This document shows, piece after piece, positions 5,701 through 41,087 of a DNA stretch of 64,000 nucleotides. The first letter of the stretch is position 1, and the number at the start of each line of letters is the position of its first letter. A model generated the notes under the pieces. That model had not been told where the DNA came from. It was given only the letters and a program-made list of their open reading frames with translations, and ran no database searches. The stretch comes from Urbifossiella limnaea (lineage in GTDB: Bacteria > Planctomycetota > Planctomycetia > Gemmatales > Gemmataceae), in the NCBI RefSeq assembly GCF_007747215.1, contig NZ_CP036273.1, forward strand, positions 3,704,322 through 3,768,321. Direction: 5' to 3'. The translations under genes and the position numbers were made by a program.

Positions 5701-8700
5701 CCGGAAACAGGAGACAGGAGCCAAGAAGAAGCAGCCGCGGAAGCCGACCGGCTACATCACCCACATTGAGGTGGAAGGCGCGTCCCAGCACAACCTGAAG
5801 CACGTGAACTGCAAGCTGCCGCGGGAGCAGATGACGGTGTTCTGCGGCCCCAGCGGCTCGGGTAAGTCGTCGCTCGCGCTCGATACCATCTACGCCGAGG
5901 GGCAGCGGCGCTACGTCGAGAGCCTGTCCAGCTACGCCCGCCAGTTCCTGGGGCAGGTTCAGAAGCCGAAGGTCGAACACGTCACGGGGCTGTCGCCGGC
6001 GATCAGCATCGAGCAGAAGACGACGAGCAAGAGCCCGCGCAGCACCGTCGGCACCATCACCGAGGTGTACGACTACCTCCGCATCCTCTACGCCCGCCTC
6101 GGCCAGCGGCACTGCCCGAGCTGCGGCGACGCCGTCGGCACGCAGACCGCCGACGAGATCGTGGACAAGGTGCTGTCGCTCCCGGAGGGAACGAAGCTGT
6201 ACATCCTGGCGCCGGTCGAGCGGAAGGGGCAGGAGAAGTACGACACGCTTTGGGAAGAGATTCGCCGCGCCGGGTACGTGCGAATGCGCGTGGACGGCAC
6301 CAGCTACAACCTCGACGAGCCGCCGGCGATCGACCACCGCCGCAAGCACCGCGTCGAGGTGGTGGTGGACCGCAACGTCGTGAAGCCCGGCACCCGCACC
6401 CGCGTGGCCGAGGCCGTGGAGCAGGCGCTGGAGTTGGGCCGCGGCGTGATGAACATCGCGTTCGTGGACGCGAACAAGCCGGAGCCGCAGTGGAAGGTGG
6501 ACCGCTACTCGCAGCACCTGGCCTGCGAGCGCTGCAACCTCAGCTTCGAGCCGCTGAACCCGCACCACTACTCGTTCAACAGCCCGCTCGGTTGGTGCCC
6601 GACGTGCGAGGGGCTGGGTGTCCAGCGCGGAGCGAACCCGGCGCTGCTGATCCGCGACGGGGCTCTGTCTATCCGCGACGGTGCCATCGCCGGCTGGCCC
6701 GACTTGGATGCCGGTTCTGCGTGGCTACCGTTCGCCGAGGCCATCGTCCGACACGCCGGCTTCGACCTCGACACGCCCTACGACAAGCTCGACGCGGCCC
6801 AACAGCGCGTCATCCTCCACGGCACCGGCGAAGCGTGGTTGGATTTGGCGAGCGGCCGGCGTGAGCCGGCAGGTCGGGGTGGCAGGACTTCACGCTCGAC
6901 GACCAGCCGGCTCACGCCGGCCGCTCGCCCGGCGCGGTTCCAGTACAAGGGCCTGTTCCCAGCCGTGGACGAGGCCAACCGCGTCTCGTTCGTCTACCGC
7001 CAGCGCCTCGACCAACTGGTCGACGAAGTCCCCTGCTCCACCTGCCGCGGCTCGCGCCTTCGCGCCGACGCCGCGGCCACCCGCTTCGCCGGCCTCACGC
7101 TCGGCGAACTCGGCGCCAAGCCCCTCGGGGATACACTCCGCCACGTCGCCGGACTCGACCTGTCGAAGCACGACACGCAGGTCGCCGGCGAAGTGCTCCG
7201 GGAGATCCGCAGCCGCCTCACGTTCCTCGTAGACGTGGGGCTCGACTACCTCGCGCTGTCGCGCCCCGGCCCGACGCTCTCCGGCGGCGAGGCCCAGCGC
7301 ATCCGGCTGGCGTCGCAGATCGGCAGCGGCCTGACCGGCGTGCTGTACGTCCTCGACGAGCCGACCATCGGGCTGCACCCGCGCGACAACGAGCGGCTGC
7401 TCGAAGCGCTGAAGCGGCTCCGGGACCTGGGGAACACGCTGGTACTGGTCGAGCACGACCGCGAGGTCATCGCCGCGGCCGACTACCTCCTCGACTTCGG
7501 CCCCGGCGCCGGCGACCGCGGCGGCGAGATCACCGCGGCCGGCCCGCCGAAGCAAGTCGGCAAGTCGCCCGCGTCGCTCACCGGCAAGTACCTCTCGGGC
7601 GCGCTGGCGATCCCGATTCCGTCGAACCGACGCATCCCCGGCGGCACCGCGCACACCCCCGCGGCGCTGGCCGAGGTCGCCCCGACGGCCGGTGTCCTCT
7701 CCATCATCGGCGCCCGCCAGAACAACCTCCGCAACGTCGACGCCCACCTGCCACTCGGGGCGTTCGTCGCCGTCACCGGCGTGAGCGGGTCGGGGAAGTC
7801 GTCGCTCGTGAACGAGGTGCTGTACAACACGCTCGCCCGCCGGCTCCACCGCGCCCGCACCGTCGCCGCCGCGCACGACGACATCCGCGGGCTCGACCAC
7901 GTGGACAAGATCATCAACGTCGATCAGGACCCCATCGGCAACTCGCCGTCGAGCAACCCGGCGACGTACACCGGCGTGTTCGACCTGGTGCGCGAGTTGT
8001 TCGCCCGGCTCCCCGAGTCGAAGGTCCGCGGCTACCACCCGCGGCGGTTCAGCTTCAACCAGAAGGGCGGCCGCTGCGAGGCGTGCGAGGGGAACGGGCA
8101 GAAGCGGATCGAGATGCACTTCCTGCCGGACGTGTGGGTCGAGTGCGACACCTGCAAGGGCACCCGGTACAACCCCGAGACGCTGGCCGTGAAGTACCAC
8201 GGCAAGAGCATCGCCGACGTGCTGAACCTGCGCGTGGCCGAGGCGCTGGAACTGTTCGGCAACATCCCCAAGATTCGCGTGGTGCTGCAAACGCTCGACG
8301 ACGTGGGCCTCGGCTACATGGCACTCGGCCAGCCGGCCCCGACGATGAGCGGCGGCGAGGCCCAGCGCGTGAAGCTCGCCGCGGAGCTGGCCCGCCCGAG
8401 CACCGGCAAGACACTCTACCTCCTCGACGAGCCGACGACCGGGCTCCACTTCGACGACATCCGCAAGCTGCTCGACGTGCTGCAACGCCTCGTAGATCTC
8501 GGCAACACTGTCGTCGTGGTCGAGCACAACCTGGACGTGGTGAAGTCGGCCGACTGGGTGCTGGACATGGGGCCGGACGGCGGCGTCGGCGGCGGCCGCG
8601 TCGTCGCCGCGGGGACGCCCGAGGACGTGGTCGGCGTCGAGGAGTCGCACACCGGCCGCATCCTGAAAGGTGTGCTGGGCGCCGGCCCTCGCGTCGAGCG

Positions 8701-9736
8701 CGTCCCGTTCGACCCCGATGCGGCGCGGCGACAACGCGCCGGCGACCTGGACATCACCGAGGTCGGCAAGGACCACGCCTTACCGTGGGAGGCCGACGGC
8801 CCGCGCTGGCACACCAAGGAGCGCGTGACGACGACCGGTAAGCCCGCGAAGTGGGACGGCGCCGCGCTGGCGTGGGTGATCGCCGAAGTTGAGAAGACCG
8901 GCGCGTTCGCGCCCCCGAACTGGAACCACCGCAGTATCGTCGAGGTGACCCCGCCGAAGAAGGCGGACGGCTGGTTCCTCCACGCGATGACCGGCCACGA
9001 GGCGTACCTGAAGCTCGTCTTCCGCGTCCCCGGGAAGCCGTTCAAGCAGGACCAACTCGCGGCCAGCCTCGGCCTCCGCCCGCTCTCGGACACGCCCGGC
9101 CTCGAAGGATTGTCCCGCGACGAGAACCGCGTGGAGGTCGGCACGTGGCCCGGGGCGCAGTACGCCGTCGTCATCGTCCACACGAAGGCCGAGATCGACA
9201 CGCCGGCCTTCCGCGAGTTCCTGGCGAAAGCCGTCGCCGCGTCCCAGGCCAGGACGCGGACCGCGGCGGACGGCGTCGAGGCGCAAATGCCGTGGAAGAA
9301 GGACGGCGAGAAGTGGCACCTGTCCGACAAGGGCTTCCCACCCGGCCGCGGGGCGCGTTGGGACCGCACCCTGCTGCCGAAGCTGCTCAAGCTCGTCCGC
9401 GACATCGAGCCGGACGCCGAGGTGAAGTGGGACAACCGCGACGCCGTCCTCGTCAAGGTGCCGGGGGCGACGCGGTCGTGGGCACGCTGGCGGACGAAGG
9501 ACGCCGACGCCCTCGACGTGCAGTTCGTCGGCCGCCGCGGGCAGTTCAACCTGAGCCGTATCGAGCAGTTCGGTCGCGGCGCGGAGTTGATCGACGACCG
9601 CGCCGGTGGGGCGACCGTGTTACACCTTCAGTTCGTGACCGCCGACCACTTCCACGCCCCGGCCCTGAAGCAACTCCTGACGGAGCACCTGGCCGGCTTC
9701 CGCGAGGCGCACGGGCGCGACAAGGAAGCCGGCTGA
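2783..9736 (+). CDS. uvrA: Giant tandem-duplicated excinuclease UvrA
   Basis: 2,317 residues, against about 940 for a standard UvrA. It is the damage-sensing ATPase of nucleotide excision repair. Two complete UvrA units are fused: residues about 1-965 and 985-1960. Walker A motifs lie near 33, 660, 1023 and 1667. Four LSGGEAQR/MSGGEAQR signatures lie near 502, 858, 1499 and 1854. CxxC zinc modules are present in both halves (CTHCGIS..CTEC, CEACEGNG..CPVC and equivalents). The linker KQETGAKKKQPRK joins the units. A C-terminal extension (about 1975-2317) contains two related segments. Residues about 1356-1383 are encoded by a palindromic repeat. The start at 2783 fits the conserved N-terminus (IVIRGAREHNL), with AGGAGGA about 13 nt upstream. 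Confidence 0.95.
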   Translation: MDTQAIVIRGAREHNLRNVDLELPRDKLIVFTGVSGSGKSSLAFDTIYAEGQRRYVESLSSYARQFLGQLPKPDVDYIGGLSPAVSIQQKTASRNPRSTVGTVTEVSDYLRVLFARLGQGHCPTCERPITAQTREQIIGRVLALPEGTRFMILAPVVRGQKGEFKDFFADMSKRGYVRARVDGRVVKLTDDLKLDKRIKHAIEIVIDRLKIEAKGATNRVRIAEAVEQALALAEGNLVISVEGDRPTDAEGETAAEEILLSAHYACTHCGISYEPPTPQLFSFNSPMGMCTECDGLGTKFTFDPDLIVPDPSLSFYAGAVPLVGSLKGMGRWRKHVYEGVAKSLDIELKTPWGKLPAEHRDQLLNGSGDRHIVWEWKQRNGTVWKHGGKWDGVVPQLLSQFKKAAPGPQRMRLEKYMRQVRCPACYGQRLNPQARAVRVGGKTLVELGHSPIGELVPWFDGYEAKLTDVARTIAGELLKEIRARLGFLLNVGLHYLTLDRSAPTLSGGEAQRIRLAGQIGSGLVGVLYVLDEPSIGLHPRDNARLLASLERLRDMGNTVLVVEHDEDTMRAADFLVDFGPGPGVRGGHVVAAGTPAEVFANPASLTGQFLNGTKEIAIPAERRKVDQKRQIKVIGATQNNLKNVTVDIPVGVLTVVTGVSGSGKSSLINDILKEALTAAGRPAAAGEDDEPDETDHTVGAHERIEGAEHIDKVIDIDQTPIGRTPRSNPATYIKLWDEVRSLYADMTDAKTRGYTPSRFSFNRPGGRCEACEGNGATKLEMDFLADVWVTCPVCEGRRFNRETLQVKYRGRSIHDTLEMEVGQALDHFEHVPKVRTMLQTLHDVGLDYVKLGQPSPTLSGGEAQRIKLAKELVRKGTGKTLYILDEPTTGLHFEDVRKLLDVLHGFAAAGNTVLVIEHNLDVIKTADWLIDMGPEGGSGGGHVVATGTPEQVAKVKASHTGAALKPILFPTGDRKQETGAKKKQPRKPTGYITHIEVEGASQHNLKHVNCKLPREQMTVFCGPSGSGKSSLALDTIYAEGQRRYVESLSSYARQFLGQVQKPKVEHVTGLSPAISIEQKTTSKSPRSTVGTITEVYDYLRILYARLGQRHCPSCGDAVGTQTADEIVDKVLSLPEGTKLYILAPVERKGQEKYDTLWEEIRRAGYVRMRVDGTSYNLDEPPAIDHRRKHRVEVVVDRNVVKPGTRTRVAEAVEQALELGRGVMNIAFVDANKPEPQWKVDRYSQHLACERCNLSFEPLNPHHYSFNSPLGWCPTCEGLGVQRGANPALLIRDGALSIRDGAIAGWPDLDAGSAWLPFAEAIVRHAGFDLDTPYDKLDAAQQRVILHGTGEAWLDLASGRREPAGRGGRTSRSTTSRLTPAARPARFQYKGLFPAVDEANRVSFVYRQRLDQLVDEVPCSTCRGSRLRADAAATRFAGLTLGELGAKPLGDTLRHVAGLDLSKHDTQVAGEVLREIRSRLTFLVDVGLDYLALSRPGPTLSGGEAQRIRLASQIGSGLTGVLYVLDEPTIGLHPRDNERLLEALKRLRDLGNTLVLVEHDREVIAAADYLLDFGPGAGDRGGEITAAGPPKQVGKSPASLTGKYLSGALAIPIPSNRRIPGGTAHTPAALAEVAPTAGVLSIIGARQNNLRNVDAHLPLGAFVAVTGVSGSGKSSLVNEVLYNTLARRLHRARTVAAAHDDIRGLDHVDKIINVDQDPIGNSPSSNPATYTGVFDLVRELFARLPESKVRGYHPRRFSFNQKGGRCEACEGNGQKRIEMHFLPDVWVECDTCKGTRYNPETLAVKYHGKSIADVLNLRVAEALELFGNIPKIRVVLQTLDDVGLGYMALGQPAPTMSGGEAQRVKLAAELARPSTGKTLYLLDEPTTGLHFDDIRKLLDVLQRLVDLGNTVVVVEHNLDVVKSADWVLDMGPDGGVGGGRVVAAGTPEDVVGVEESHTGRILKGVLGAGPRVERVPFDPDAARRQRAGDLDITEVGKDHALPWEADGPRWHTKERVTTTGKPAKWDGAALAWVIAEVEKTGAFAPPNWNHRSIVEVTPPKKADGWFLHAMTGHEAYLKLVFRVPGKPFKQDQLAASLGLRPLSDTPGLEGLSRDENRVEVGTWPGAQYAVVIVHTKAEIDTPAFREFLAKAVAASQARTRTAADGVEAQMPWKKDGEKWHLSDKGFPPGRGARWDRTLLPKLLKLVRDIEPDAEVKWDNRDAVLVKVPGATRSWARWRTKDADALDVQFVGRRGQFNLSRIEQFGRGAELIDDRAGGATVLHLQFVTADHFHAPALKQLLTEHLAGFREAHGRDKEAG
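6847..6929. repeat. Palindromic repeat inserted in frame in uvrA
   Basis: 24-bp perfect inverted arms at 6847-6870 and 6906-6929; the match continues to about 30 bp with one mismatch. The arm core is GAGCGGCCGGCGTGAGCCGG. It encodes LASGRREPAGRGG... in a place where the first UvrA unit has nothing similar. Related arms occur at 54563-54586 (leuS) and 62003-62078. Confidence 0.85.
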
Positions 9737-9786
9737 GTGGCGTGCCGTAGAACAGTCACCGGACGCATCCGCCCCGGGGACCACGC

Positions 9787-11160
9787 ATGCCCGCACCGAC
9801 GCTCGCCGCCCGCCTCGCCAAATACGCCACCGAACTGACCTTCGAGAAGCTGACGCCCGAGGCGGTCCACGAGGCCAAGCGGCGCGTCATCGACTCGCTC
9901 GCCACCGCCGTCGGGGCGATGCCGGCCGAGGCGTACCACACCGCGAAGCGGTGCGCCCTCCGCGTCAGCGGGAATCCCGGGGCCTCGCTGCTCGGCGGCG
10001 GCCGCAGCAGCCCCGAGTGGGCGGCGTTCGTGAACGGCCTCCTCATCCGCTACCTCGACTTCAACGACACGTACCTGTCGAAGGAGCCGGCACACCCCAG
10101 TGACAACTTCGCCGCCGTGTTCGCCGCCGGCGAGGCCGCGGGCCGCGGCGGCCGCGACCTCATTACCGCCGCGGTGCTCGCCTACGAGATCCAGTGCCGG
10201 TTCTGTGACGCCGCCAGCCTCAGGAGGCACGGCGTCGACCACGTCACTTACGGCGCCATCTCGTCGGCGGTCGCGGCCGGGAAGCTGCTCGGGCTCGACG
10301 CCGGGAAGCTCGTCCACGCCGTCGGTATCGCTGGCGTCTGTAACGTCGCCCTGCGGCAGACGCGCAGCGGCGAGTTGAGCGAGTGGAAGGGGTGCGCGTT
10401 CGCCAACGCCGCCCGCAACGGCGTGTTCGCGGCGACGCTCGCCGGCGAGGGGCTCAGCGGTCCCGCCCCGATCTTCGAGGGCGACCTCGGGTTCTTCCGG
10501 CTGGTGTCGCAGGGGGCGTTCGACCCGGCCCCGTTTGGTGCCGAACTCGGCAACTTCGACGGGTTCATGATCAACAAGACGTACATCAAGTTCTGGCCGG
10601 CCGAGTACCACTCGCAGAGCGCGATCGACGCCGCGCTGAGGCTCCGGCAAGAACTCGGCGGCGACGTGTCGAACGTGAAGTCGATCGACATCGAGACGTT
10701 CGAGGCGAGTTACAACATCATCGGCAAGTACCCGCAGGCGTGGACCCCGAAGACGCGCGAGACGGCCGACCACTCGCTCCCCTACTGCACCGCCGCCGCC
10801 CTCATGGACGGCGACGTTTACCTCCCCACCTTCGACGAGGCCCGGTTCACGGACCCGGCCCTGCTCGACCTCACCGGCAAGGTGCAGGTCCACCTCGACG
10901 ACGCCCTCTCGACGCGCTACCCGAAGGGAATTCCGAACCGCATCACGGTGACGCTCAACGACGGCCGCAAGCTGGTACAGGAGGTCGAGTTCCCGCGCGG
11001 CCACGCCGGGAACCCGATGACGGATCAGGAGGTGGAGGCGAAATTCCGACGGGCGGTGGAGCCGAAGTACGGGAAGCCGAAGGTCGACGCGATGCTCGCC
11101 CGCTGCTGGGATTTCGAGTCGCTGCCCGGGGTCGGCGAGCTGATCGGTCTGTTCGACTGA
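9787..11160 (+). CDS. MmgE/PrpD family protein
   Basis: 457 residues, the usual length for the family, which includes 2-methylcitrate dehydratase (PrpD) and cis-aconitate decarboxylase. Family features include the N-terminal helical region (EAVHEAKRRVIDSLATAVGAM), RYLDFNDTYLSKEPAHPSDN near residues 95-115, and KFWPAEYHSQSAIDAAL near 270. Substrate specificity cannot be told from sequence, and no prpB/prpC neighbours are present. The gene follows uvrA by 50 bp on the same strand and may be co-transcribed. It ends at a hairpin (11170-11197) shared with the convergent gene. Confidence 0.9.
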   Translation: MPAPTLAARLAKYATELTFEKLTPEAVHEAKRRVIDSLATAVGAMPAEAYHTAKRCALRVSGNPGASLLGGGRSSPEWAAFVNGLLIRYLDFNDTYLSKEPAHPSDNFAAVFAAGEAAGRGGRDLITAAVLAYEIQCRFCDAASLRRHGVDHVTYGAISSAVAAGKLLGLDAGKLVHAVGIAGVCNVALRQTRSGELSEWKGCAFANAARNGVFAATLAGEGLSGPAPIFEGDLGFFRLVSQGAFDPAPFGAELGNFDGFMINKTYIKFWPAEYHSQSAIDAALRLRQELGGDVSNVKSIDIETFEASYNIIGKYPQAWTPKTRETADHSLPYCTAAALMDGDVYLPTFDEARFTDPALLDLTGKVQVHLDDALSTRYPKGIPNRITVTLNDGRKLVQEVEFPRGHAGNPMTDQEVEAKFRRAVEPKYGKPKVDAMLARCWDFESLPGVGELIGLFD

Positions 11161-37681: not shown

Positions 37682-39028
37682 ATGAGCCGCCTGTCGCCGT
37701 CCGGTCAGCGCAAAGTGTTCGGCCTGGGGATGGTCGTGACCGCCGTCGCGGTCGGGTACTGGACGTTCTTCTCGGACGGCCTGCCGATCTGGCGCGGCCC
37801 GTCGGCCTCGGCCTCGGAGATCGCCGCGGGCCGGGAGTTGTTCGAGCGCGAGTGGAGCGCGAACGACCCGATGGCCCGCGGCGACGGGCTCGGGCCGGTG
37901 TTCAACGCCCGGTCGTGCGCCGCCTGCCACTTCCAGGGCGGGCTCGGCGGCGGCGGGGCGAACGAGCACAACGCGTTGGGCTTCGAGGTGCTGCCGCGGC
38001 CCGGCGACCACACCTTCCGCAGCGGCACCATCCACAACTTCAGCACCAACCCGGCCGTGCGCGAGACGATCGGCCGGCTCAGCCAGATCCACCCGACTGT
38101 GACCGGCAGCACGACCGTGACCGGTACTCCCGACTGTCAGCGGACCATCACCGTCCCCGACTTCAACCCCGTGCGGACGCAACCGGTGCAGGCCACGGCC
38201 CTGTTCGGCGCCGGCTGGATCGACCTGATTTCGGACCGCGCCATCCTCCGCAACGCCCGCAACCGGGGCGTGCAGAACGCGGTTCGTGAACTGTCCCTCC
38301 AGTTCGACGACATCCCCGTCGGGAAGGTCCGGCACGTCGCCGGCGGCGTCGGCAAATTCGGCTGGCGCGGTCAGTTCCACACGCTGTCCGAGTTCGTGTC
38401 GGTGGCGTGTGCGAACGAACTCGGCCTCGGCACGCCGGACAACCCTCAGGCGCAGCCGTTCACGAGCCACAGCCCGGCGAGTGAGCCCGACCTGGACCGC
38501 ACACAGGTCCGGCAACTGGTGGCATTCGTGAAGACACTCCCGCGGCCGATCGAGGCCGATGGCGGGGCGCACGCGGCCCGCGGCAGGCAACTGTTCGGCG
38601 AGATCGGCTGTGCCGCGTGCCACGTCCCCGACCTGGGCGGCGTCACCGGCGTGTACAGCGACTTCCTCCTGTACGTGATGGAAGACCCGGTGCCGAGCGG
38701 CGGCCGCGGCGGAAGCGCTTACGACCCCGCCCCGCCAGAGCTGAACCTGCCCGGCCGGCCGGGGAGCGAGACGGAGCCGAACGAGTGGAAGACGCCGCCG
38801 CTGTGGGGCGTGGCCGACTCGGCCCCGTACTGGCACGACGGCACGGCCCCGAGTCTGAAGGACGCCGTGCTGAAGCACCGCGGCAACGGCAAGGCGGTGT
38901 CGGAGCGGTTCAAGAAGCTGCCGGCCGCGGACCAGGAGTCGGTGCTGGCCTTCCTCGGTACACTGAAGGCGCCGCCGGACGCGCAGCCCCTGCGAAACTC
39001 GGCCGTGACCCGCCTGGCTCGGAAGTGA
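37682..39028 (+). CDS. Di-heme oxidoreductase (DUF1111 family)
   Basis: 448 residues. An N-terminal membrane helix or signal (VFGLGMVVTAVAVGYWTFF, residues 13-31) precedes the mature domain. Two CxxCH heme sites are visible: SCAACHFQGG near residue 80 and GCAACHVPDLGG near 312. Family motifs include GLGPVFNARSCAACH, TALFGAGWIDLISD and TPPLWGVADSAPYWHDG. The family is distantly related to di-heme peroxidases (MauG-like) and acts in the periplasm. Start ATG at 37682 has GGAGG 6 nt upstream. Its stop overlaps the GTG of mug. Confidence 0.9.
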   Translation: MSRLSPSGQRKVFGLGMVVTAVAVGYWTFFSDGLPIWRGPSASASEIAAGRELFEREWSANDPMARGDGLGPVFNARSCAACHFQGGLGGGGANEHNALGFEVLPRPGDHTFRSGTIHNFSTNPAVRETIGRLSQIHPTVTGSTTVTGTPDCQRTITVPDFNPVRTQPVQATALFGAGWIDLISDRAILRNARNRGVQNAVRELSLQFDDIPVGKVRHVAGGVGKFGWRGQFHTLSEFVSVACANELGLGTPDNPQAQPFTSHSPASEPDLDRTQVRQLVAFVKTLPRPIEADGGAHAARGRQLFGEIGCAACHVPDLGGVTGVYSDFLLYVMEDPVPSGGRGGSAYDPAPPELNLPGRPGSETEPNEWKTPPLWGVADSAPYWHDGTAPSLKDAVLKHRGNGKAVSERFKKLPAADQESVLAFLGTLKAPPDAQPLRNSAVTRLARK

Positions 39029-39576
39029 AGAGACCAACCCGCGCCGATCTCCTCGCCGCCGCCGGCAAGACTGTTCCCGACGTGACCGCCCCTGGGTTGA
39101 AGGTACTGTTCTGCGGCATCAACCCGGGGCTGTACACGGCGGCGATCGGCCACCACTTCGGCCGCCCCGGCAACCGCTTCTGGCCGACCCTCCACGCCGC
39201 CGGGTTCACCCCGCGGCTGTTTGACCCCTCCGAGGAGCAGCAGTTGCTGCCACTCGGCTACGGCATCACGAACGTGGTCTCCCGCGCCACCGCCGCCGCA
39301 GACGAACTGGCCGATGACGAGGTCCGTGCCGGCGGGTTGGTGCTCGTCGAGAAGCTGAGACGGCTCGCGCCGACGTTCCTGGCGGTGTTGGGTGTTGGCG
39401 CATATCGCGTGGCGTTCGGGAGGCCGAAAGCTGCCGTCGGCGAGCAACCGGAGCGGATCGGCGAGACGCGGGTGTGGGTGCTCCCAAATCCGAGCGGGCT
39501 GAACGTCTTTTACCAGCAGAAGATGGTTGCACTTTTCTCAGAACTGCGTGGGGTAGCTTGCCCCTCGCATGGTTGA
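39025..39576 (+). CDS. mug: G/U mismatch-specific uracil-DNA glycosylase
   Basis: 183 residues. The GTG start (39025) overlaps the stop of the upstream gene (GTGA). Motif 1, FCGINPG, lies at residues 29-35, followed by HHFGRPGNRFW. Motif 2, LPNPSGLN, is at residues 153-160. These form the active site that excises uracil or ethenocytosine opposite guanine. The C-terminal 23 residues (VFYQQKMVALFSELRGVACPSHG) come from lower-GC DNA. A second Mug-like ending (SGLNAHYQADALARVFGELR) is encoded about 320 bp downstream, so the 3' end looks mosaic. Confidence 0.92.
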   Translation: MKRPTRADLLAAAGKTVPDVTAPGLKVLFCGINPGLYTAAIGHHFGRPGNRFWPTLHAAGFTPRLFDPSEEQQLLPLGYGITNVVSRATAAADELADDEVRAGGLVLVEKLRRLAPTFLAVLGVGAYRVAFGRPKAAVGEQPERIGETRVWVLPNPSGLNVFYQQKMVALFSELRGVACPSHG

Positions 39577-39587
39577 GAGGCTCTGTC

Positions 39588-39824
39588 ATGGATTTCACTT
39601 GGGGGCGGGCACGTTACACGTCGAGGAAGATCAAAGACGTTCAACAAGGCTACGAGGGATTTGAACTCGTCCGGCAACAGGACGGAGCAGATCTGCGTGT
39701 GGCAAGCGTCGTGTTCTGGGACGCTACAGGACAATTCTGGGTCGAAACATTCGGCACCGACATTCCGCTCCAAGTACTCGAAGAACTGATTGCTGAGACG
39801 AAGGAAAAGGTGCGGATCCGGTAG
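39588..39824 (+). CDS. 78-residue hypothetical protein in a lower-GC patch
   Basis: 78 residues from the ATG at 39588: MDFTWGRARYTSRKIKDV, then GYEGFELVRQQDGADLRVASVVFWDATGQFWVETFG and IPLQVLEELIAETKEKVRIR. The last two parts could form an all-beta core with a C-terminal helix. I do not recognise the family. Base composition is clearly lower in GC than neighbouring genes, and codons such as AGA, TCA, CAA and TTT are more common. It lies between the present mug ending and a mug 3' remnant, so it probably arrived with the DNA that replaced the mug tail. Confidence 0.6.
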   Translation: MDFTWGRARYTSRKIKDVQQGYEGFELVRQQDGADLRVASVVFWDATGQFWVETFGTDIPLQVLEELIAETKEKVRIR

Positions 39825-39832
39825 CACCCTGA

Positions 39833-39931
39833 ACGCACAGATGTCTACACAGCCCGAGTGGTTTGAACGCCCACTACCAGGCCGACGCCTTGGCCCGCGT
39901 GTTCGGCGAGTTACGAGGCGCTGCTGGCTGA
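39833..39931 (+). pseudogene. Remnant of a mug 3' end
   Basis: Frame starting at 39833 and ending in TGA at 39929-39931 reads ...HSPSGLNAHYQADALARVFGELRGAAG. This matches the conserved Mug C-terminus (NPSGLN plus the following helix). No start codon or upstream Mug domain is in this frame. The present mug, ending at 39576, has the same motif as NPSGLNVFYQQKMVALFSELR. The remnant therefore appears to be the displaced original ending. Confidence 0.7.
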
Positions 39932-39935
39932 GGGG

Positions 39936-41087
39936 TCATCGCCCGGCCAACTCGTGGAAGAAATCTTCGAATCGCCGCGTCATCGCGTCCCGGCTGAACT
40001 CGGATTCGACCTTTCGCCGGGCCGCCGCTCCGAACGCCGCCGCCATCAGCGGCCGCTCCAGGTAGCGGCCCACCGCCTCGGCCAGGGCCGTGGGGTCATT
40101 CGGCGGCACGATCTGGCCGCTCCGGCCGTCGTCGATCAGCGTCGGGTTCGCGCCCACGGCGGTGGCCACGACCGCCCGGCCGGCGGCCATGTACTCCAGC
40201 AGAGCGTTCGACATCCCCTCCGAGTGGGACGGCAACACCGCGATCTCGACCGTCCGCAGGAAGGCCGCCGCGTCGGGGATCGAACCGCGGAACACGAACC
40301 GGCTGCCGAGGCCGAGCTCGGCGTGAAGCCGCTCCAGTTCCTCGCGCTGCTCGCCGTCGCCGGCCACCTCGAACACCAGGCACGAGTGCCGCTCCAGCAG
40401 CAGCTTCGCGGCGTGCATCAGGCCGGCGATGTTCTTCACCGGCCGAAGGTTCGCCACACAGCCGACGCGGACGCGTTTCTTGGTCGTGTCGGGCAGCAGG
40501 AACCGGTTGAACCGCTGGGTGTCGACGCCGTTCTCCAGCACGACCACGCGGTCGGGCGTGTAGCCGTCGCCGGCGACGATGGCGTCGCGGCCGGCGGCGG
40601 TGTTCGTGAGGAAGCGGCTGACGAACGGCCGGATGACGCGCCCGGCGACGCGGTCCTTACGAGTGAGGGCGTAGCCGAGATTGTTCCGCACCCGCACGAC
40701 GGCTTTCACACCCGCCGCGCGGGCGACCGGCACACCGAAGTACGACGAGTCCTGGAAGTACGTCTGCACAACGTCCGGTTGCGTGTCGCGCCAGTACGCC
40801 CGGAGCCGGGAAGCGGCTTGAACGCCGCCGCGGCTCAGCAACTTCCGCACGCCGAGCCGCACGACGGGGCAGTCGGCCGGCTCGAGCGCCCGGGACAGAT
40901 CATCTTCGCCGTCGAGCAACACGAGCGACGGCCGGACGCGGCTCCGGTCGAGGTGGTTGATGAGGGCGACGAGTTGGCTCTCGGTGCCGGCGCGGGTGAG
41001 GCGGTCGATGACGAACGACACCCGGACCGGCGCGGCGGCCGGCGGGGCGACGGGATCGGCAAGGCGCGGCGCGAGGAGTGCGGACAT
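39936..41087 (-). CDS. GT4 family glycosyltransferase
   Basis: 383 residues, GT-B fold. The N-terminal domain has SFVIDRLTRAGTESQLVALINHLD. The C-terminal nucleotide-sugar domain has VGCVANLRPVKNIAGLMHAAKLL, FRGSIPDAAAFLRTVEIAVLPSHSEGMSNALLEYMAAGRAVVATAVG and the conserved EGMSNALLE Glu pair region. Cytoplasmic, probably building a cell-surface polysaccharide; donor and acceptor unknown. It begins 18 bp after the stop of a second GT4 gene, so the pair forms an operon. Confidence 0.9.
   Translation of the reverse strand: MSALLAPRLADPVAPPAAAPVRVSFVIDRLTRAGTESQLVALINHLDRSRVRPSLVLLDGEDDLSRALEPADCPVVRLGVRKLLSRGGVQAASRLRAYWRDTQPDVVQTYFQDSSYFGVPVARAAGVKAVVRVRNNLGYALTRKDRVAGRVIRPFVSRFLTNTAAGRDAIVAGDGYTPDRVVVLENGVDTQRFNRFLLPDTTKKRVRVGCVANLRPVKNIAGLMHAAKLLLERHSCLVFEVAGDGEQREELERLHAELGLGSRFVFRGSIPDAAAFLRTVEIAVLPSHSEGMSNALLEYMAAGRAVVATAVGANPTLIDDGRSGQIVPPNDPTALAEAVGRYLERPLMAAAFGAAARRKVESEFSRDAMTRRFEDFFHELAGR

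Follow-up and report, generated by a model that had tools for sequence, protein, structure and literature searches.

Why does the mug gene of Urbifossiella limnaea appear to end twice? In the 64,000-nucleotide stretch of DNA analysed here (the window), mug occupies positions 39025-39576 of the plus strand, begins with a GTG start and closes with the C-terminus PNPSGLNVFYQQKMVALFSELRGVACPSHG and a stop codon. The gene scores 185 bits with NCBIfam NF007570 (G/U mismatch glycosylase), whose cutoff is 144, and E. coli Mug structures match it at 1e-42. PSGLN is a switch point: native mug sequence precedes it, and an atypical low-GC tail, VFYQQKMVALFSELRGVACPSHG and a stop, follows. GC3 drops from 0.85 in the mug body to 0.57 in the replacement tail, compared with 0.91 in the neighbouring GT4 glycosyltransferase gene and 0.92 in the upstream cytochrome gene; total GC is 0.51 in the tail versus 0.70 in the window, which bears out the initial annotation in its statement that mug ends in lower-GC DNA. 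Further downstream, SPSGLNAHYQADALARVFGELRGAAG and a stop (39929-39931) come back in frame as a second ending.

We consider it likely, with a probability of roughly 0.75, that a mug-specific integrative element entered here, and that the window holds an integrase-less remnant made up of attL, one passenger gene and attR. The features of the locus, under this reading, are the following:

39025-39494, plus strand: native mug body, up to the inferred crossover at AG in the Ser codon of NPSGLN; 83% identity to mug of congener G001.
39490-39505, plus strand: putative attL core, CCGAGCGGGCTGAACG, from sequence comparison.
39495-39576, plus strand: putative element-borne replacement mug 3′ end, finishing in GLNVFYQQKMVALFSELRGVACPSHG and a stop; GC 0.51, FY-type tail.
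39495-39858, no strand: 364-bp insert between the two probable crossovers, missing from the empty site of congener G004.
39588-39824, plus strand: 78-aa passenger ORF of an orphan planctomycete family; no Pfam, NCBIfam, PHROGs or PADLOC family above cutoff, homologs in G057, G375 and L091.
39825-39856, plus strand: presumed remnant of the element's other attP arm, with no long inverted repeat remaining.
39854-39869, plus strand: putative attR core, CCGAGTGGTTTGAACG, with 3 mismatches to the attL core, all after AG.
39857-39931, plus strand: displaced original mug 3′ end, SGLNAHYQADALARVFGELRGAAG and a stop; a family-type tail matched by the tail HMM.
39936-41087, minus strand: GT4 glycosyltransferase gene, which by flank comparison lies on the distal side of the empty site.

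The stranded tail sits 364 bp from its proper join with the mug body. To judge its origin, we used an HMM built from the mug tails of 24 relatives, nearly all of the AH[YH]Q...LxxVFxxLR type. The stranded peptide scores 57.5 bits, far above both controls (18.1 bits for the best of 3000 window peptides and 23.4 bits for the best of 1000 shuffles), so the match is not due to chance; the second ending had been noticed before from the letters alone, and the Mug family alignment now supports it as a remnant. The stranded tail lacks a start codon of its own and has an in-frame stop upstream, and it is therefore probably untranslated. A tandem duplication of mug's own end was considered and rejected, since GC and sequence both show the present tail to be foreign, and the stranded one is of the family type.

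An uninterrupted version of the locus exists in congener G004, where mug carries an AHxQ-type tail (NAHHQ...) and runs straight into the GT4 gene, as the initial annotation had predicted for a relative without the insertion. On contig C1141 of G004, positions 9963-10434 correspond to window 39505-39034 and positions 7598-9968 to window 42264-39864. Window positions 39505 and 39864 thus map to overlapping positions on one contig, and the joined flanks indicate that about 360 bp have been inserted in the window (364 bp between the probable crossovers). Another congener, G005, has about 3.5 kb between a normal-tailed mug and GT4 (C864:4600-8060, L040), the result of some other insertion or rearrangement between these two genes.

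The insert has a GC content of 0.55 versus 0.70 for the whole window, and its 78-aa ORF, which starts 11 bases past the mug stop, has a GC3 of 0.61, in line with the low GC first ascribed to this ORF. A homolog with 47% identity adjoins IS-like genes in G057, and further homologs occur in G375 and in an uncultured Gemmata MAG (L091). In the latter (L091:4059-5446), the homolog is divergent from an integron integrase gene (TIGR02249, 2e-93) with a frameshifted C-terminus; GTTAGAT, which is attI-like, lies between them, and the homolog takes the place that a first gene cassette would have. The 78-aa family is a rare planctomycete orphan and, judging from these neighbourhoods, is linked to mobile DNA in other genomes. 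A search for a donor lineage of the protein found none, nor was the gene detected in G001. The insert is present once in the window genome (G000) and has no second copy in five congeners; searches for homologs in these genomes gave nothing beyond weak DNA matches, 20-40 bases long, attributable to chance. Viral contigs were searched by attP-like pattern, integrase and 78-aa protein, and no free copies were found. The insert contains no integrase ORF, and the whole of G000 gave no match to the integrase of G001.

The closest congener, G001 (86% identity to the window in GT4), is interrupted at the same nucleotide as the window, and a large element occupies the gap. Contig C718 of G001 carries an atypical mug end, NAFYHHRFADEFRKLREAVEAGDPK; window homology stops at 39518, and the 41.9 kb beyond that point are without a counterpart there. 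Homology picks up again on contig C758, where GT4 and its neighbours can be aligned with the window as far as 39850 and the stranded tail, NPSGLNAHYQADALARVFGELRAACG and a stop, comes next; a displaced tail was also sought on C718 and is not there, the copy beside GT4 on C758 being the one found. A gene for a 575-aa serine recombinase starts 121 bp from this junction and reads away from it. The protein combines Resolvase and Recombinase domains, matches a PHROGs integrase family at 2e-57, and has the domains and size (about 500-600 aa) of a large serine integrase, with about 31-35% identity to phage serine recombinases across half of its sequence. Next to it are genes for a P4-type primase/helicase, a RepB-like primase (weak match), and DUF932 and HTH proteins. 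The element has a GC content of 0.65-0.66 versus 0.70 in its flanks and spans at least about 55 kb, summed over two contigs whose middle is not closed. It also holds many unassigned cargo genes, including one for a GMC oxidoreductase (L059:481-14207 and L034-L036). The family has many relatives of the integrase (30-48% identity), a number of which adjoin other protein genes. Upstream of two related serine integrases in other genera of the family (L064 and L065), the neighbouring gene is presumably for a ComM/YifB-type ATPase, as recognised from the flanking peptide; with such neighbours in two genomes, this integrase group seems to use several protein-gene targets.

The junctions themselves suggest where strand exchange would have taken place. 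The two core copies in the window, CCGAG-CGGGCTGAACG and CCGAG-TGGTTTGAACG, are identical before AG and differ only after it, as a crossover at AG leaves one side element-borne and the other native; we infer that the crossover lay at this AG, within the NPSGLN Ser codon. When the element-side halves of the two G001 junctions are put together, they give a reconstructed attP, GGGGTGGTGGCATTTGGGCTTCAACCCG-AG-CGGGCTGAACGCTTTTTACCACCACCGC, which forms an imperfect inverted repeat of 28 bp with AG at its centre (19/28; outer positions 15/23, p ~1e-4 from shuffles). The attP of Bxb1 is 48 bp long, with an asymmetric central dinucleotide and partial symmetry (PMC3642061), and the partly symmetric G001 site is, as far as its bases tell, of the kind used by serine integrases. 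The attP reconstructed from the window lacks such partial symmetry (10/28; outer 5/23, with a 7-bp inverted repeat only), which we read as decay or a different integrase.

Comparison of the tails indicates more than one event. Over the first 20 codons, the stranded tails of the window and G001 differ by 10 silent nucleotide changes and no amino-acid change. Such silent-only divergence implies that they were under selection within mug for most of the species divergence, and that they were stranded later and separately; from these codon counts, the two displacements look independent and recent. The element-borne tails differ, over 30 codons, by 44 changes in codons of differing residues and by 2 silent ones, as expected for two elements. 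The atypical tails of the window, G001 and a third congener, G003, score 20-24 bits on the mug-tail HMM versus about 57 for native tails, at or above the best of 1000 shuffles, and all three have FY in place of HY. Among 398 genomes of the class, the FY signature occurs only in these three congeners, and the reversed control pattern has no match; an AHY tail separated from mug is found only in G000 and G001. In G003 (C140:14482-14590; L006, L094), the FY-type tail is accompanied by loss of mug-GT4 synteny, and neither a displaced tail nor an integrase was found up to 15 kb from mug or 10 kb from GT4; G003 may represent a third, more eroded event.

We propose that mug of this planctomycete genus would serve as attB for integrative elements that cross over at the AG within the Ser codon of the conserved motif NPSGLN. 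An incoming element would supply a look-alike mug 3′ end, so that mug stays open, and would push the original end to its far side; the likeness of the new tail to the family tail suggests that mug is kept functional. G001 would represent a stage in which the element is still large, with the serine integrase next to attR, and the window a stage in which it has shrunk to 364 bp, i.e., attL, the 78-aa passenger gene and attR, after loss of the integrase. That the G001 protein is active as an integrase, and that the window insert once held such a gene, are suppositions of this scheme. Several observations count against it: no integrase is present in the insert, the symmetry of the window attP is weak, no copy of the 78-aa gene turned up in G001, the G001 element is split over two contigs, and G003 has an FY tail with no displaced tail or nearby integrase.

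The same data bear on other origins of the insert. Homologous recombination, or illegitimate recombination assisted by homology, with DNA of another lineage could have delivered a mug tail of foreign origin together with the 78-aa gene, with no integrase involved; the foreign composition of the tail and ORF, the short 16-bp homology at the junctions and a window attP that is not an inverted repeat all suit such an exchange. However, G001 has acquired the identical break point independently, next to an integrase, and no FY-tailed donor mug was found outside the genus in the 398 class genomes, so that we regard this origin as unlikely. The initial annotation had favoured recombination into NPSGLN that delivered a new tail and a passenger gene and stranded the old tail; its outline was right, but the mechanism is more likely site-specific integration, generic recombination with a foreign mug being a weaker reading than integration by a serine integrase. 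A naturally tiny non-autonomous element, consisting of att sites and one gene and mobilised in trans by the integrase of a larger mug-specific element, would account for the small size of the insert (364 bp) and for the open 78-aa gene a short way past mug, and a larger element is present in the sister species; its occurrence as a single copy, with none in the five congeners, and the degraded look of the attP arms make this very improbable. An integron gene cassette at a secondary site in mug, a thought encouraged by the insert size and by the integron integrase and GTTAGAT site next to the Gemmata homolog, is rejected on the junction sequence, as the 32 bases from ORF stop to crossover are too short for attC, a mug tail is not something that cassettes carry, and GTTRRRY is absent at the junction.

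Site-specific integration into mug recalls several known systems. The e14 element in icd exemplifies the island type that restores its target gene. Following the Islander principle, a regenerated target together with a displaced fragment marks the ends of a genomic island (PMC4383910). Like such islands, the window has an intact regenerated mug, a displaced 3′ fragment in the same orientation and an empty site in a relative (G004); unlike them, the target here is a protein gene, mug, the window copy is only 364 bp long, and the sister species has a large serine integrase beside the site instead of a tyrosine integrase. The integrase gene expected inside such an element is present in G001 and missing from the window, so the insert is classed as a remnant only. 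Cis-mobilizable elements (CIMEs) are decayed ICEs or IMEs that keep attL and attR (PMC5704250). The window likewise retains both att junctions, assigned from sequence and comparison with G001, and lacks integrase and transfer genes; it differs in its very small size, with one orphan gene left, and is best called CIME-like. The G001 element resembles Bxb1-type large serine integrase systems (PMC3642061) in its Resolvase and Recombinase domains, its partly symmetric attP of about 50 bp with a central dinucleotide and the adjacency of attP to the integrase gene; it differs in the low identity of its integrase to phage serine recombinases and in giving its target a mimic tail. Serine-integrase sites are described as situated inside genes, and in known cases dispensable genes are disrupted (PMC5704250); an element that returns a mimic of its target's end is thus somewhat unusual, though we do not claim it to be unprecedented. 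Our literature search, limited to open-licence texts, found no report of mug as an integration site.

We also entertain, as a rather improbable extension, that integration and excision swap the C-terminal helix of Mug, in which case the host would alternate between two Mug versions whose repair activity may differ; if true, this would be a mobile-element-controlled swap in a DNA repair enzyme. Taken at the strength given above, our reading is that mobile elements have repeatedly docked at mug in a planctomycete genus, for which G001 supplies a serine integrase with mappable attB and attP. An integration event can leave behind no more than a 364-bp scar, with a passenger gene and an exchanged enzyme tail, and atypical ends of core genes call for caution because they can be element-borne.
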